DNA from: Halalkalibacter oceani
Lineage (GTDB): Bacteria > Bacillota > Bacilli > Bacillales > Bacillaceae_D
Assembly: GCF_023715605.1 (NCBI RefSeq)
Contig: NZ_JAMBOL010000003.1
Location: 248,001 to 312,000 of the forward strand
Direction of reading: 5' to 3'
DNA: 64,000 bases
Shown: piece by piece, positions 3,033-25,644 of the stretch
Layout of the letters: each line of letters starts with the position of its first letter
Position numbering within the stretch: position 1 is the stretch's first letter
Translations under genes and position numbers: made by a program
Notes under the pieces: generated by a model
What the model was told of the DNA's origin: nothing
Databases searched by the model: none
Seen by the model: only the letters and a program-made list of their open reading frames with translations

Positions 3033-3748
3033 TACTCCTTCACAGCCTCAAATTTATAGCCGATGCCCCAGACCGTCGAAATTAAAGCCGCGGCTTCAGG
3101 AGAAATTTTGTTAAGCTTTTCCCGCAATCGCTTAATATGCGTGTCAACCGTTCGTAAATCACCGAAGAAATCATAATTCCAGACATCCTTTAGCAGCTGC
3201 TCACGCGAAAACACTTTATCCGGAGATTGAGCAAGATAATGAAGCAGCTCATACTCCTTCGGGGTCAAATTGATTTCTTCACCGGAAACGGTGACGCGGT
3301 GCGCATCATTGTCAATCGTTAAATGTTGAAAAACGAGGACATCCTTCGTCTGCGTATCCGTTTGCAAGAACTTTGTCGAAGAAGAACGGCGGAGTAACGC
3401 CTTGACCCGCAGCACGACTTCGCGCGGACTGAACGGTTTGACGATATAATCGTCTGTCCCCACTTCAAATCCTTGTACGCGGTTCGTTTCCTCGCCTTTT
3501 GCCGTCAGCATCATGACCGGTGTTGCCTTGGACTTTCTCAGCTCCTGACAGACTTCGATCCCGTCCTTGCCCGGCATCATAATATCGAGCAAAATCAAAT
3601 CATATTCCTCATTTAACGCCATCTCTAACGCTTGTTCGCCATTCTCGGCTTCTTCGATTTCATAATTTTCTCTTTCTAAATACATTTTTAATAAGCGTCT
3701 AATGCGATCTTCGTCATCGACAACTAAAATCCGTGCTTCTTTTTCCAT
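3032..3748 (-). CDS. resD: Response regulator ResD
   Basis: OmpR/PhoB-type response regulator, 238 aa. The receiver domain has the acidic pair near residues 11-12, the phosphorylated Asp55 in LLDIMMPG and the Lys in MLTAKGE. A winged-helix DNA-binding domain follows. The ATG at 3748 is preferred over an upstream in-frame start because GAGGAGG lies just upstream and the family begins at this point (MEKEARILVVDDE). In B. subtilis ResD activates resA, ctaA and fermentation or nitrate genes under oxygen limitation. A hairpin separates it from resC, so resDE may have its own promoter. Confidence 0.95.
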   Translation of the reverse strand: MEKEARILVVDDEDRIRRLLKMYLERENYEIEEAENGEQALEMALNEEYDLILLDIMMPGKDGIEVCQELRKSKATPVMMLTAKGEETNRVQGFEVGTDDYIVKPFSPREVVLRVKALLRRSSSTKFLQTDTQTKDVLVFQHLTIDNDAHRVTVSGEEINLTPKEYELLHYLAQSPDKVFSREQLLKDVWNYDFFGDLRTVDTHIKRLREKLNKISPEAAALISTVWGIGYKFEAVKE

Positions 3749-3842
3749 TGACCTTTTCCTCCTCGCTATGTTTAACAGTAGTGTACCATTGTCCTCCCGG
3801 CGAAAAAAGCGTAACAAAAGCCGGTAAAATGAAAGCTGCTTA

Positions 3843-5160: not shown

Positions 5161-6801
5161 TTATTCATGTTTACTGTTTTGCGATGAATTTTCCGCCTCT
5201 TCCAGCTGATCTACCGGTGTTGCGATCCCGCTGTCGGCGATGACATAGTCAATATCCTTCCGCAATCCTAAATAGTTTTTATTCGTGTGACCGGCAATCC
5301 AGATTTCACCATTAATCCGTTGCAGCCAAATCCGGCGGTGGGCCCAGTAAGAGCCTTGGACGAGGCCGAACATGAAAATAGCCCCACCGACAATTAAGAA
5401 CGGTAATGTTTTATCCTTTCTGACGGTCAGTCCCGTTACATGCTTCGTCTCGACATCAACAAATGTCATTTTATATTCGTTTTCCCCGAGAGGCTCCAGA
5501 TTCTGTCTAATACCGACCAGGCTCGTTTCCCCTTCAGGTGTATCAGGTGTGTACATCGTAAAAATGAACACCGGATTGTTCGGTACACTTGATTGGGTCG
5601 CCGGCTCATTGTTCGCATCGAGATGGAAGTCAGGAAAATATTGGCCTACGACGACGCGATACCCGTCACCAAGATCATATTCCGGCTCCGGATCGAGCAG
5701 GTTAATATCCATCCGCCCGAACGTTTCCCCCGTTTCCTTGTTCTCAAGGGTAAAGCTCATCGTACTTAATTCATTAAGCCGGTAGCTGACTTGATACAAT
5801 GAAAAATCATCAAAGCTCAGCGGTTCATTCACGCGGATATAATGCTCGTCCACCTGCACAAGCTCGCCTTCCCCGACAACGCCGGTATCCTCCTGCTCAT
5901 AAAGAATCGCATCTGTTTGATACGTTTTAACAACAGGGCCGCCGTTACGCTGGATCGCCTCTGAGTACATCTCATCATCTTCATCATAAAGCTCAATGAT
6001 AAACTGTTCATTTTTCACATGGTAACGTCCTTCTGTTCCCGGGACGACAACCGTGTCACCTTCGCGAATCCACATATTATCGTCAATATACATCCCGGGA
6101 AAATAGCGGAGCATACAGCCAATAAGAAAAATAATAAGACCAATATGGTTGACGTAGGGACCCCAGCGGGCAAAACGGTTTTTTTCCGCTACCAGGTTGC
6201 CGTTTTCCTCTGACACGCGGTATTTCTTATCCTTCAGCTTTTCTTTCACTTGCGTAAAAGCCGCGTCCGGATCTTCGACCTTCGACGTCCCGAAAACGCG
6301 CTGGCGTTTCATAAAGCTTTGATGCCTTGTCACACGCTGTGTTTTCAATGCCCGGTAGAGCGGGACAAAGCGGTCAAGGCTGGCAATCAAAATCGAAATT
6401 CCGAGCGCCGCCAAAAGCAGCATATACCACCATGAGCCGTATAAATTGTGAAAGCCGAGCTGATAATAGAGTTGCCCGGTAATGCCATATTCAGCGGCAT
6501 AGTGTTCGGCCGGATTGACTGTAGGCGGAATGTACATCTCCTGCGGATAAATCGTTCCGAGTGCGGAAGCTACGAGCAGGAGGACAATAATCCAGATCCC
6601 TACCTTAACAGACGAAAAAAACATCCATATCTTATCGATAAATGTTGTCGTGTACGTTTGTGAGCGGCGGGCCACCCCTTCATAGCGCATGTTCAGCAGG
6701 GTCTTTTGATCCTCGCCCTCCTGCAGCGGCTTGCCACAGGACTCACAGACGAGCGTGCCATGAGGGTTGTCGTGCCCACATTCACATTTTATTTTGTTCA
6801 C
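5161..6801 (-). CDS. resB: Cytochrome c biogenesis protein ResB
   Basis: Membrane partner of ResC in system II cytochrome c maturation, 546 aa. An N-terminal zinc ribbon is visible as CECGH with a second pair CESCG. Three membrane segments follow near residues 60-80, 120-140 and 210-230. A large extracytoplasmic domain comes next, then a last membrane helix before the cytoplasmic tail. The GTG at 6801 is chosen because GAGG lies 8-11 bases upstream; another GTG at 6810 is possible. The gene starts just past the resA stop codon, so the two are probably translated together. Confidence 0.94.
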   Translation of the reverse strand: MNKIKCECGHDNPHGTLVCESCGKPLQEGEDQKTLLNMRYEGVARRSQTYTTTFIDKIWMFFSSVKVGIWIIVLLLVASALGTIYPQEMYIPPTVNPAEHYAAEYGITGQLYYQLGFHNLYGSWWYMLLLAALGISILIASLDRFVPLYRALKTQRVTRHQSFMKRQRVFGTSKVEDPDAAFTQVKEKLKDKKYRVSEENGNLVAEKNRFARWGPYVNHIGLIIFLIGCMLRYFPGMYIDDNMWIREGDTVVVPGTEGRYHVKNEQFIIELYDEDDEMYSEAIQRNGGPVVKTYQTDAILYEQEDTGVVGEGELVQVDEHYIRVNEPLSFDDFSLYQVSYRLNELSTMSFTLENKETGETFGRMDINLLDPEPEYDLGDGYRVVVGQYFPDFHLDANNEPATQSSVPNNPVFIFTMYTPDTPEGETSLVGIRQNLEPLGENEYKMTFVDVETKHVTGLTVRKDKTLPFLIVGGAIFMFGLVQGSYWAHRRIWLQRINGEIWIAGHTNKNYLGLRKDIDYVIADSGIATPVDQLEEAENSSQNSKHE

Positions 6802-20463: not shown

Positions 20464-20826
20464 TCAGCTTTTGCGGGTTTCAGCTTCCTTTTCTTCACAA
20501 GCTGAAACAAACGTTTTTGTATACTTTGTCGGTTTTACTTCACATGGCAGCAGCTTCTTTAAGGCCGCCAGCATTTTTGTGCCTATCCCCTCTTCACGAA
20601 ACGAAGGATTGACGCAAATGTGCCGGACCTTCGCTTCGCTTCCTTCGATCGACACACCGATCACACCGATAAAATCATCTTCCTTCCACAAGTAAAGCTT
20701 CCAGTCAGGATCCTTCTCATACTGTTCCATCGTCTTCAGCAGTCTTTTGACGTCCTTTTCCTTCCGCATAAAAGAGAGCAAACCCATCGCGATTTTCCGA
20801 TTCGCTGTATTGTAAGGTACTAGCAT
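20464..20826 (-). CDS. ribT: GNAT-family acetyltransferase RibT
   Basis: 120 aa, GNAT fold, with the acetyl-CoA-binding loop in VNPSFREEGIGTKMLAALKK. B. subtilis ribT is the last gene of the rib operon and encodes an acetyltransferase of uncertain substrate. Here it is cut off from ribH by a four-gene ger operon on the same strand. An AGAGGG site precedes the ATG. A possible -10 (TAGAAT) lies in its 125-base upstream gap, so it may have its own promoter. Confidence 0.85.
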   Translation of the reverse strand: MLVPYNTANRKIAMGLLSFMRKEKDVKRLLKTMEQYEKDPDWKLYLWKEDDFIGVIGVSIEGSEAKVRHICVNPSFREEGIGTKMLAALKKLLPCEVKPTKYTKTFVSACEEKEAETRKS

Positions 20827-20951: not shown

Positions 20952-22490
20952 TTACGGCTGCGTCTGTCTTTCCTTCGTTTTCGGCTCCTTCGTTCTCATT
21001 TTCAATAGCGATACCGGTGCGCGAATGACCAGGTCGAGCCAGTCTTTCGAGTTGAATGGCGCATAAGGCGAAAGATAATAGCTTCCAAAGCTTCTTAAGC
21101 CTACGAGGTGGATATTGATTAAAATATAGCTAATGACAATTCCATACAAGCCGAACAGCGCCGCAGCAATCATCACGGCAAACCTTAAAATCCGGAAGGT
21201 GATCGCGACATTGTAGGAAGGAAACGTAAAGGAGGAGATCGCGGTCAAAGCGACGACAATCACCATGATCGGACTGACGATCCCGGCACGGACGGCGGCA
21301 TCGCCGATAATAATCCCGCCAACAATCCCAACCGTTTGCCCAATCGGCCGCGGCAGGCGGTTCCCGGCTTCCCGCAGCAATTCAAACGTGGCTTCCATCA
21401 GCATCGCCTCGGCAAAGATCGGAAAGGGCACCCCTTCCCTTGATCCGGCTATTGAGAGCGCCAATGTCGTCGGCACCATCCCTTGATGAAACGAGACGAT
21501 CGCGATATAAATCGACGGCAAAAAAACGGTAAAAAAGGCGGCTACATAGCGAAGAAAACGGATCAAGCTCCCAATCAGCCAACGATCATAATAATCCTCA
21601 GGCGATTTAAACAGCTGATGAAACGTAATCGGCGCAACGAGAGAAAAAGGAGTCCCGTCAACTAAAATGACAACCTGGCCATTAAGCAGATGAGCCGCTG
21701 TTTTATCCGGTCTCTCGGTATGGGAAATTTGCGGGAAGGGAGAAAGCACATTATCCTCGATAAACTGCTCCAGCACTCCGGTTTCCGCGATGTCATCCGT
21801 TTCGATACTGGCAATCCGGTACGTCACTTCATCGATGACATTCTGTGTGACAAGATCTTTCAAATAAAGAATCGCGACCTTCCGCTTGGAACGGAGACCA
21901 AGTGATGTCGTTTGCACTTTGAAGCTGACATCGCGAACTCTTTGGCGGATCAGAACAATATTCGTTTGAATGTTTTCCGTAAACCCGTCGCGCGGCCCGC
22001 GAATGACCACCTCACTTTGCGGTTCCTCAACAGAGCGGCCTTTTGCTTTCTTACTGGCAATGATGATTAAGCTCGGCAAGCCGTCAATGATCAGCAGGCT
22101 TTCCCCGGCAAGCAGCTGAGGAATCGCTTCATCAAAGCTTTGGAAGGTGTGACTGCCTTCAAGTGCTAAATACTGCTCCTGCAGAAGAGCTACGAAGTCG
22201 GTTTCTTTATCCTCAAGTTCCAGCAGCTCTTCTTCCTTCATCGCCATTAAAGTCCGGCTGACCTGCTCCACTTTTTTGGAGTCCACTAATCCTTCCACAT
22301 AATACAAAGCGGCCTTTCTCTTCTTGCCGATCAGAAGAGGACGGACAATAAAATCATCACTACCTTCAAAAAGTTCCTCGATTGTTTTGGAGAGTTCACT
22401 TATCTCTGACGACAGCTTTAACTGATTCGCCGGTTGAGTGTTGGCTTCAGCCTGTGCCGCCCGCAGCCGCTTGTACACTTTGTTAAACAA
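20952..22490 (-). CDS. Spore germination receptor subunit A (GerAA family)
   Basis: 512 aa. A large N-terminal cytosolic domain has two beta-alpha modules (residues 40-270) with RGPRDGFTENIQTN near 185. About five membrane helices follow, with PSIYIAIVSFHQGMVPT and SREGVPFPIFAEAMLMEATFE, both typical of GerAA. It is the A subunit of a nutrient germinant receptor in the inner spore membrane. It is the last gene of the operon, not the first as in most ger operons. Confidence 0.94.
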   Translation of the reverse strand: MFNKVYKRLRAAQAEANTQPANQLKLSSEISELSKTIEELFEGSDDFIVRPLLIGKKRKAALYYVEGLVDSKKVEQVSRTLMAMKEEELLELEDKETDFVALLQEQYLALEGSHTFQSFDEAIPQLLAGESLLIIDGLPSLIIIASKKAKGRSVEEPQSEVVIRGPRDGFTENIQTNIVLIRQRVRDVSFKVQTTSLGLRSKRKVAILYLKDLVTQNVIDEVTYRIASIETDDIAETGVLEQFIEDNVLSPFPQISHTERPDKTAAHLLNGQVVILVDGTPFSLVAPITFHQLFKSPEDYYDRWLIGSLIRFLRYVAAFFTVFLPSIYIAIVSFHQGMVPTTLALSIAGSREGVPFPIFAEAMLMEATFELLREAGNRLPRPIGQTVGIVGGIIIGDAAVRAGIVSPIMVIVVALTAISSFTFPSYNVAITFRILRFAVMIAAALFGLYGIVISYILINIHLVGLRSFGSYYLSPYAPFNSKDWLDLVIRAPVSLLKMRTKEPKTKERQTQP

Positions 22491-22502
22491 CAGATCCCCT
22501 CC

Positions 22503-23699
22503 TTACTTTAATTTTTCCTCCGTCATATAATTGCGAACTTTTACAGATACATTTGTATGGACAATTGCGTCTTTAAACAAGCCATCCTCTCCGTCCCATC
22601 TGTCCTTGATTTCTTCCCAATATTTAGGATCCTTCCGATTAATCTTCATGCCAAAGCGAAAGATATCCAGGCTGTATTCATTCTGCATTTTCTCGACGAT
22701 TTGGTTGATTTCCGCCTTGATTTTCTCCTCGACTGCCTGCTGCAGCTTTATATTCGTCTCAATATCGGCTACATCGATCCCTTCAATCCACTTTTCAGCA
22801 AAGGATCCTTCCGTTTTCACATCAATGGTAAACACATTTTGCTCGCCTCTCCGTTCAAAATCTAAGGATGTTTTTGCCGAAAACGATTCATAGACAAAGA
22901 CTCCCTTATCCTCATAGTTCACCTCAAGCACGCCATTTTCGGCATCTCCAACGACCCAGTTATATCCTTCTGTTTCCGCTTCACCGAGCCAGCCGACCAT
23001 TTTATTTTCCTGACCGTCAAAGACCGCTGCCCCTGCGACTTTTATATCGGTTTTTCCACTGACAATCCGCGGGATGATATAGCTGTACTGATTAATGATA
23101 AAGCTCGTTACATCACCCATCTCGACATATTTCGGCATCTGTAATGTCTTTTCATAATTTTCCAGTACTTCTCGGATATAAAGCGCCGGCATTTTTTCCA
23201 ATGGAACTTTAACATCAAAATTGGCTTTTGCCTCTCCTTTCGATATTAAGACAAGCACCCTTCTTCTCATTTCATGGTCGCGCAAATAGAAATCGGCGAG
23301 ATGCTCAAGCATCCCGTTTCTGACAAGCTCTTCGTTAATAATCAGCACCTTTAAATGCTCACTGTTTAACGCCCGGCTGCTTCTTGTTGCCAAATTGCGC
23401 GCCACTTTAAAATTTGTTAAGCCGATCGACGTTAAATTAAAATGAGATTGAATGTCTTCTCCGCTCTGCGAATCCTGTGGGACAGCAATCTGATACGTTT
23501 TTCGGAAAAAACGCTCATGAGCCTCACTGTCGCCAATGGCCTCGCCGAGCTCCTCCTCTATATGGTCTTCATGCCTTTCCTCTTCTTTGACGGGATCAAA
23601 GGCAATTCCTAAGACAAAGCCAAGCTCTTCAATATCCCTGCTGTCCCAGCAGCCTGTTAGAATGAAAAGAATCAAGATAGTTGAGATAGCGCGCTTCAT
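22503..23699 (-). CDS. Spore germination receptor subunit C (GerAC lipoprotein)
   Basis: 398-aa lipoprotein with signal MKRAISTILILFILTGCW (lipobox LTGC) and the family motif GCWDSRDIEELGFVLGIAFD. The ATG at 23699 is chosen because AGGAGG lies just upstream and the signal peptide begins here. It overlaps the end of the B subunit by four bases. C subunits sit on the outer face of the inner spore membrane and are needed for receptor function. Confidence 0.93.
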   Translation of the reverse strand: MKRAISTILILFILTGCWDSRDIEELGFVLGIAFDPVKEEERHEDHIEEELGEAIGDSEAHERFFRKTYQIAVPQDSQSGEDIQSHFNLTSIGLTNFKVARNLATRSSRALNSEHLKVLIINEELVRNGMLEHLADFYLRDHEMRRRVLVLISKGEAKANFDVKVPLEKMPALYIREVLENYEKTLQMPKYVEMGDVTSFIINQYSYIIPRIVSGKTDIKVAGAAVFDGQENKMVGWLGEAETEGYNWVVGDAENGVLEVNYEDKGVFVYESFSAKTSLDFERRGEQNVFTIDVKTEGSFAEKWIEGIDVADIETNIKLQQAVEEKIKAEINQIVEKMQNEYSLDIFRFGMKINRKDPKYWEEIKDRWDGEDGLFKDAIVHTNVSVKVRNYMTEEKLK

Positions 23700-24808
23700 C
23701 TTGCTCCTCCTTGTTGCTTTTTCTTCCTTATCGCAATCCATGTCGCACAGATGAGCCCAATAACAATTAAACCAATTCCGCCATAGCCGACGATTGTCCC
23801 GAACAGAAAAGCCTCTGAGATCGACCGCGGGGCGAAGGCAATGATAAGCGTTGCTAACGTAATCCAGCTTGGCAGTATTCGCGAATGCTTCTTAATATCC
23901 AGCGTTTCGCGAATAATCTTCGTTGTCAGAAAGTGGGCAACTGACATTGTATTAAAAATACTCATCATCCAAATCGTGATCATCAGCGCTTCCACCCGTT
24001 CAAACACGCCGCCGGGTATTTCAATTTCTTTTACCAGCTCTACGGTCGGAAATGTCAGCACCTCGGTCGTTTCCACACTAAAGATCGCAAAGCTGATTAA
24101 CGTGATTCCTAAATATAAAATAAAAATAATCACAATACTGGCAACCATCGGTCCTGCTTTTAAATCTTCCTTTTTCATCGCCGCCAAAAAGAAAAAAACA
24201 ATCTCTACCCCGAGCAGGGAAAGGGTCGTTTCCTTCACTCCCTGAAAGATTGAGTTACTGTCTCCCATCGTCAAAGGAAGCAATTGTTCAAATTCAAATT
24301 CCGGCAGCACGACAACCATCATCGCAATTAAAAAGAAAACGGTAATCGGGACGAACATCAAATTTAAATGGATAATCCCTTGAAGTCCTTTTGTGACCGC
24401 ATATGTTGTCGTCAAAAGAATAACAGCGGCGACGACTTCGGCCGGTGTGTCAATCAGCAAATAGATTCTGACGACAATCGAAAGAATTCTTGTTTCATAC
24501 GCCAACAGCAGAAGAAAATAGCAGGCAAAGGCTAATCCGAGAACCTTCGCCAGCCAGGAGCCCGCCTTTGTATGAGTAAGTGCTTCAAGCAACGTTTCAC
24601 CGGGAAAACTGCGTTGTAGCTTTGTGTAAATGACGATGAAGAGAATCGTAAGCAGGCTGCCGATCAAAATCGACAACAGAGCGACGACCGACCCGCCTGC
24701 CGCGGCAAGACTTCTCGGCAACGTTAAAATTCCGATTCCGACAATAATGCCAATCAGCGTCATGCTTATTTCAACCGGAACTATTTTATATGATGTCGTA
24801 TTACTCAT
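23696..24808 (-). CDS. Spore germination receptor subunit B (GerAB family)
   Basis: 370-aa membrane protein of the APC transporter superfamily with about ten helices (IGIIVGIGILTLPRSLAAAGG at the first helix). The B subunit is thought to bind the germinant amino acid or nucleoside. It is the first large gene of the operon and precedes C. The substrate cannot be read from the sequence. Confidence 0.93.
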   Translation of the reverse strand: MSNTTSYKIVPVEISMTLIGIIVGIGILTLPRSLAAAGGSVVALLSILIGSLLTILFIVIYTKLQRSFPGETLLEALTHTKAGSWLAKVLGLAFACYFLLLLAYETRILSIVVRIYLLIDTPAEVVAAVILLTTTYAVTKGLQGIIHLNLMFVPITVFFLIAMMVVVLPEFEFEQLLPLTMGDSNSIFQGVKETTLSLLGVEIVFFFLAAMKKEDLKAGPMVASIVIIFILYLGITLISFAIFSVETTEVLTFPTVELVKEIEIPGGVFERVEALMITIWMMSIFNTMSVAHFLTTKIIRETLDIKKHSRILPSWITLATLIIAFAPRSISEAFLFGTIVGYGGIGLIVIGLICATWIAIRKKKQQGGAR

Positions 24809-24830
24809 AGTACGAACTCCTTTTTATGAG

Positions 24831-25019
24831 CTACTCTTGTTTTTTGAGCTTATCCCGTATATGCTCATTCTCCTTCTTCATCCAAGGAAGACTCGTGACT
24901 CTCTCAAACCAGTCGGTCAGATGCTGGACGATCCAGATAAGAAAAAATGAGATAACGGCAACGATCATTACTGAAAAATTCGGCATAAAGCCTAGCACTT
25001 CATGCAAAAGTTGGGACAT
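24831..25019 (-). CDS. Small membrane protein heading the ger operon (possible D subunit)
   Basis: 62 aa with one hydrophobic helix (residues 16-35) and a charged C-terminal tail ending KLKKQE. A GGGGGG-rich ribosome-binding site precedes the ATG. It lies 22 bases upstream of the B subunit on the same strand. Small membrane D subunits with usually two helices accompany several ger operons; this one has only one clear helix, so the assignment is tentative. Confidence 0.65.
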   Translation of the reverse strand: MSQLLHEVLGFMPNFSVMIVAVISFFLIWIVQHLTDWFERVTSLPWMKKENEHIRDKLKKQE

Positions 25020-25111
25020 CTTCTTCCCCCCATGGTTTCATTCCTTTCTTTTCCTTAGCTTTCACGTCTTTCAAAAATTTTATTTATCGTTTAGAAAAGC
25101 GACAAAAAAAA

Positions 25112-25161
25112 GAGAGGCTGGACCAAAAGGTGCAAAAAACAACCTTTTGGTCCAGCCTCTC
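25112..25161 (-). terminator. Rho-independent terminator of the rib operon
   Basis: A perfect 20-base-pair stem, GAGAGGCTGGACCAAAAGGT paired with its complement, around a 10-base loop. On the minus strand it is followed by eight T residues. It lies 12 bases past the ribH stop, so the ger genes downstream need their own promoter. Confidence 0.93.
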
Positions 25162-25173
25162 TGCGTACTCTCT

Positions 25174-25644
25174 TTACTGTTCAATGCTTCGGCTTAAATT
25201 TGCCATCTCAATCGCCGCTGTCGCCGCGTCCCAGCCTTTATTACCCGCCTTCGTGCCGGCGCGCTCCACCGCCTGCTCAATGGTATCGGTCGTTAACACA
25301 CCGAAAATGACAGGCTTGCCGCTGGAAAGCGCTAATGAGCCGACGCCCTTTGCCACTTCATTACACACGTAATCGAAATGCGGTGTCGCCCCGCGGATCA
25401 CCGTGCCCAACGTAATGACTGCATCATACTTTCCTGTATCAAGCAGTTTTTTCGCCGCGAACGGAATTTCAAACGCGCCCGGCACCCAAGCGATGTCAAT
25501 ATCCTTTTCATCAACCCCGTGACGTTTTAACGCATCCTCTGCTCCGCCTAACAGCTTACTCGTAATAAATTCATTGAACCGTCCGACAACGATTCCCACC
25601 TTTAACCCTGTTGCTACTAATTGTCCTTCAAACACTTGTCCCAT
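25174..25644 (-). CDS. ribH: 6,7-dimethyl-8-ribityllumazine synthase
   Basis: 156 aa, lumazine synthase, which joins 3,4-dihydroxybutanone 4-phosphate to the ribitylaminopyrimidine. Substrate-binding motifs [31 protein letters not shown] and [17 protein letters not shown] are present. It follows ribAB by 57 bases and ends the riboswitch-controlled rib operon at a strong terminator. Confidence 0.97.

Follow-up and report, generated by a model that had tools for sequence, protein, structure and literature searches.

A germinant receptor operon between ribH and ribT of Halalkalibacter oceani and its small leading gene, a candidate detached helix of the A subunit

The window analyzed here, a stretch of 64,000 nt from Halalkalibacter oceani, contains a spore germinant receptor operon that lies between two riboflavin genes, is led by a small membrane gene and has its subunit genes in the order B-C-A. 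This raises the questions whether the order is a peculiarity of the site and what the small gene encodes. Judging from the sequence comparisons described below, the locus quite probably encodes a nutrient germinant receptor of the GerA type, located in the spore inner membrane, the small product being the N-terminal helix of a Paenibacillus-type A subunit in detached form.

Layout of the operon

The receptor operon spans 25019-20952 on the minus strand. The minus-strand open reading frames and their domain families confirmed both the order small membrane gene, B, C, A on one strand and the placement between ribH and ribT that a first-pass annotation had given. In the direction of transcription the features are:

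25174..25644, minus strand: ribH, upstream neighbour, outside the receptor (open reading frame and domain match)
25103..25162, minus strand: terminator-like hairpin (stem-loop 25162-25111, then eight T), a copy of a dispersed repeat (folding, repeat search)
24831..25019, minus strand: small gene, 62 aa, one membrane helix, predicted D-like fourth component (open reading frame, alignment, profile searches, AlphaFold2)
23696..24808, minus strand: B subunit, spore permease, 370 aa (PF03845/TIGR00912)
22503..23699, minus strand: C subunit, lipoprotein (PF25198 and PF05504/TIGR02887; the open reading frame opens at 23741)
20952..22490, minus strand: A subunit, 512 aa, TTG start, without N-terminal helix (PF03323)
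20464..20826, minus strand: GNAT protein at the ribT position, downstream neighbour, outside the receptor (open reading frame and domain match)

Beyond the GNAT gene lie a DUF309 gene and two further genes at the scpA and scpB positions; we take these two to be scpA and scpB, and the GNAT gene to be ribT, from gene position. For C the ATG at 23699 is more likely to be the start than the opening of the frame at 23741, since it has AAGGAGG ahead and yields a lipoprotein signal ending in an LTGC lipobox. The locus thus shows what defines the GerA type: PF03323 in A, PF03845 in B, PF05504 with a lipobox in C, and a single operon. The A protein matches the solved A N-terminal domains 6o59 and 9prb (GerIA) and is 93% identical to that of Halalkalibacter oceani P106, the closest named record. 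When 25 upstream regions were scanned with a simple consensus, no sigma-G-like promoter stood clearly above shuffled sequences. Ten A genes of the GerA type, in operons of four or more different orders, are present in the genome (4.47 Mb; loci L143-L151), and in its A-C-B locus (L143) a two-helix ORF of 71 aa lies between C and B (3613-3825).

The small one-helix protein and its relatives fused to A

In all 14 loci of the receptor clade that were found with A as query, a small gene precedes B. The 14 stand-alone products have a GFxP motif close to the N-terminus, followed by a single hydrophobic helix and then LPWMKxEN. Five positions of their alignment A1 never vary: F at 10, P at 12, P at 44, W at 45 and N at 50 (14 rows, the first of which lacks its initial Met). 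In the AlphaFold2 model of the small protein (mean pLDDT 76), a short helix leads into a turn at the conserved proline, which is followed by a helix of 28 residues (15-42) and by a C-terminal helix. A Pfam scan of the 14 proteins gave no fitting family, returning weak unrelated names with a best E of 0.0002 in one member, and the NCBIfam match of the window's protein to FliQ (E 0.0098, far below the cut-off) was treated as chance. A single hydrophobic segment was found in 45 of 46 stand-alone members, including the window's, and these genes stand beside ger genes; the earlier suggestion that the leading gene encodes a D-like subunit with one helix is thereby supported as a reading. Near 6383-6508 of locus L203 a one-helix match with an internal stop lies directly before a B gene, with no A or C nearby.

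Next, we looked for the helix in other positions. A model of the 14 before-B members also picked up small genes that follow C in A-B-C operons (Brevibacillus, Oceanobacillus and one Halalkalibacter), gave weak matches before A in Paenibacillus and others, and matched the first ~40 residues of A itself in several Paenibacillus and Bacillus relatives; in A proteins of the Paenibacillus type the first ~40-60 residues match the small protein. Across 397 genomes of the order, 26 of the 28 matches to the A1 model lie at ger genes and two (L211, L212) away from them. For a wider search we used model A6, made from the 14 stand-alone proteins only, against 398 Bacilli genomes, with 15 first-look candidates scored per genome. 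This yielded at least 98 matches in at least 85 of the 398 genomes; the window, whose small protein is part of the model, is among them, and 8 of the matches listed carry an internal stop. Flanking DNA was taken for all matches listed and the best model match in each stretch was assigned to one of four categories: (i) stand-alone genes on the ger strand, at most about 130 bases from a ger match, with at least 57 cases (at least 31 after C, 18 before A, 5 before B and 3 elsewhere); (ii) stand-alone genes divergent from A on the opposite strand, with at least two cases (L306 and L312, from two genomes of one genus); (iii) matches in the same open frame as A and N-terminal to it, with at least 37 cases (frames of 550-644 aa); (iv) matches away from ger genes, with two cases among the matches listed (L314, L316), which are unrelated membrane proteins resembling each other. 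Free and fused states are both present in four families.

We further counted both states locus by locus. Among 47 clade loci, with A as query, 26 have the free helix and 18 the fused one, none has both and three have neither by the model (L029, L069 and L052, the last of which has a fitting upstream ORF by eye). The weakest fused matches in this count have E values of 0.06 and 0.09, and L049 was set to fused by eye because an over-long start hid the match; L188 and L189 (duplicates), L197 and L201 (split A), L203 (no A) and L211 and L212 (no ger genes) are omitted, as are the loci left out of the A tree described below. The same model found neither a free nor a fused helix in 21 loci outside the clade. 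Fisher's test on the free and fused states gives p 3e-10 with relatedness ignored, while the tree provides only two independent pairs on well-supported (starred) branches, so that a tree-aware test is without power. The mutual exclusion of the two states is a pattern clustered on the tree and not tree-corrected.

How far do these data separate the detached helix from other readings of the small gene? One of them takes the small protein for a shortened version of the two-helix D subunits GerUD and GerKD, its likeness to the N-terminus of A being secondary. The small gene does have the same genomic habit as GerUD and GerKD, and one GerUD helix suffices for function according to the GerUD experiments in PMC4661057. 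However, eight clostridial two-helix proteins encoded upstream of A score 1%, which is shuffle level, and a joint model has no match at E 0.05 to the two-helix ORF of L216. The clostridial proteins are consequently not supported as relatives, and we consider a shortened D subunit unlikely.

More doubtful is a receptor of the usual three subunits whose genes have merely been reordered, the small ORF then being a leader or coupling peptide without any role in the receptor. As such a leader would, the ORF overlaps or shortly precedes B in the clade, and its product evolves faster than the subunits (dN/dS 0.16 compared to 0.05-0.08 for A, B and C, window against H. oceani, with 36 synonymous sites). 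Against this, it is the protein that is conserved and not just its place, as the five invariant residues in 14 rows indicate; its relatives also stand behind C, ahead of A or divergent from A, positions from which coupling to B is impossible; and at least 37 matches are fused to A. We therefore give the leader little credit.

The free and the fused helices could finally be alike by convergence, any lone helix near ger genes then looking similar. The profiles are short, hydrophobic and shallow, and one block shuffle reached a probability of 65% from the coarse hydrophobic layout alone. Comparing the profiles gave 97.5% for before-B to after-C, 95.5% for after-C to before-A and 42% for before-B to before-A, comparisons which are not fully independent since the before-B model and gene position helped to select the after-C and before-A sets; in each of the three, none of 100 block shuffles reached the real score. 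The positions of P-x-W at the turn and of I/V-P are shared as well, and at least 37 of at least 98 matches fall exactly on the N-terminus of A, compared to two off ger among the matches listed. A pair of plasmid-borne loci also argues against convergence: the end of the free gene lies within a few bases of where A starts in two Priestia records, whereas Cytobacillus solani has the helix as part of A, with a ribosome-binding sequence ahead that is like that of the Priestia free gene. Taken together, convergence appears very improbable. In the PLSDB gene table, which is incomplete, the free gene is unlisted in two Priestia plasmids and the A gene of C. solani is annotated from an internal start, which drops the helix. 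An AlphaFold2 model of a fused A (L035; pTM 0.50, low confidence) has helices at 2-9 and 14-41, the same pattern as in the small protein, and no docking site is readable from it.

Gene order, rib location and the hairpin after ribH

The order small-B-C-A was found in 25 of 25 distinct loci of the receptor clade, of which 14 were obtained with the A query and 11 with the small protein as query, the latter hence not being independent for the small gene. Two of the 25 (L191, L192) have tandem B genes (small-B-B-C-A). Within Halalkalibacter, seven of 13 genomes hold eight loci of the clade, all in this order, which is also present in Alkalihalophilus, Anaerobacillus, Bacillus sp. EB106 and further genomes of the order. 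In quick trees with SH-aLRT support the small-B-C-A loci form one side of a branch, starred in each tree, with support of 100 for A (13 rows), 99 for B (13 rows) and 98 for C (12 rows). For this comparison loci with split or extra genes were scored as A-B-C and L112 as B-C-A; the A tree omits the duplicates L108 and L021, the partial A genes of L065, L066 and L068 and the split A of L114, and the B and C trees omit L033, L117 and L029, L112 (broken). Because all 25 loci share the order and those included in the three trees form one clade, it is normal for this branch of receptors. The first-pass annotation had regarded it as an anomaly and had allowed that relatives might prove to share it; they do, and the anomaly falls. 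The premise that A-B-C is the usual order of ger operons does not hold in the window's own genome either, where the other nine ger loci are A-B-C in four cases, B-A-C in two and A-C-B in one, with A alone recognised in two. The small-B-C-A order would have had a single origin at the base of the clade. Some clade operons look split or decayed, with C in three pieces (L112), A in two (L114, L197) or B in two (L197).

Unlike the gene order, the rib location is local. A survey of rib-locus synteny, which the first annotation had proposed, detected the operon at this site in two of 13 Halalkalibacter genomes, the window's own and that of H. oceani (G007), in the latter across a contig break: one contig ends in ribH and another starts with the small gene, with ribT after A. 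The insertion looks common to the two genomes, and in each of the other 11 ribH and ribT are on one contig with no ger genes between them. We suggest that the operon moved into the ribH-ribT gap later, in the H. oceani lineage. That insertion at the rib locus produced the order, as its presence there in two of 13 genomes might suggest, is effectively ruled out by the clade-wide order, since 23 of the 25 same-order loci lie elsewhere or have no rib genes in their annotated flanks (rib genes being searched in the 14 A-query loci) and small-B-C-A loci form one clade in three trees. The gap is variable in Halalkalibacter (L124, L125, L126, L132): three genomes have a 309-aa protein in it, with DHH/DHHA2 in the one scanned, and in one genome it is occupied by a transposase of the IS1595 type together with a DUF2691 protein.

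The hairpin after ribH has a folding energy of -41.7 kcal/mol (z -8.6; none of 200 shuffles was as stable). It was not listed by a consensus terminator scan because of the limits of that scan in stem and loop size. From its fold and T8 tail it is predicted to be a strong terminator that ends the ribH transcript. The earlier claim of a terminator separating the operon from the rib genes stands to this extent, but we reject a special insulator: the hairpin belongs to a dispersed repeat family with 47 genome matches at up to two mismatches, compared to two for a backward control. The repeat centres on GAGGCTGG(A/G)CCAAAAGG, and two copies often lie close together in inverted orientation. In H. 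oceani, too, ribH is followed by a similar hairpin (L107).

Proposed role of the helix and comparison with known systems

We propose that the small product is the separate-chain form of the N-terminal helix that A carries in Paenibacillus-type receptors, and that it acts like a one-helix D subunit. Its likely partner is A, because many relatives carry the same helix fused to A. The helix would pack against A, with its C-terminal tail probably towards the spore core and near the N-terminal domain of A; there it may steady or tether A within the A-B-C complex and thereby tune assembly or sensitivity, like the two-helix GerUD. The basic residues bear on the orientation: within 12 positions of the helix, 94 lie on its C-terminal and 56 on its N-terminal side in total, the C-terminal side being favoured in 29 of the 46 stand-alone proteins and in 16 of the 19 fused ones. 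This excess modestly fits a C-terminal side that faces the spore core, the side on which the A N-terminal domain is placed by work cited in PMC13170314.

On a broader scale, we lean slightly towards a large GerA-type branch across Bacilli in which each receptor has one copy of an overlooked helix, free or on A, that repeated fission and fusion have moved and that docks as a D-like subunit on A beside the predicted channel. That one helix exists in nature both free and fused points to A as the partner and makes direct tests possible, by splitting or by fusing. The contact partner of D subunits is named as a key objective in PMC4661057, and PMC13170314 (2026) offers an AlphaFold 3 placement for GerID only. 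Genes of 40-75 codons, such as that of the free helix, are easily missed in annotation, and in the open-licence literature we found no report of the one-helix family or of its fusion to A. The GerA-type receptor itself is known; what appears to be new is the one-helix family and its fusion to A, with a function deduced from sequence.

Known GerA-type receptors (GerA of B. subtilis, GerI of B. cereus, GerU of B. megaterium) have the same Pfam families for A, B and C and likewise a single operon. The operon in the window differs in its order small-B-C-A and in having a one-helix fourth protein where these systems have none or a two-helix D. The D subunits (GerUD of B. megaterium, GerKD, and GerID of B. 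cereus) are small membrane proteins from receptor operons, as is the product described here. According to the account of GerUD in PMC4661057, that protein consists of two helices and a connecting loop. Without it, glucose and proline had a higher apparent Km, and a single helix, whichever of the two and in whichever orientation, was enough for function, the partner of GerUD being left open. The two joined helices are absent from the window's family, which has one helix, often fused to A in relatives, and for which no link was detected to the clostridial proteins or to the L216 ORF, GerUD and GerKD being compared by description. Eight clostridial relatives (L036, L037, L045, L047, L050, L055, L056, L059) have a two-helix ORF of ~68-80 aa before A, with F, D, K and D invariant (alignment A4), apparently a separate D-like family. 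Closer in form is GerX(x) from the gerACxBBB cluster of C. botulinum Group III, which has 74 residues and a single membrane region in a ger cluster and which PMC5083711 reports to be without homology outside Group III; we liken it to the window's protein by description. The A subunits of the Paenibacillus type carry the same helix as the window's small protein, but there it is part of one polypeptide rather than two, and the gene order is A-B-C.
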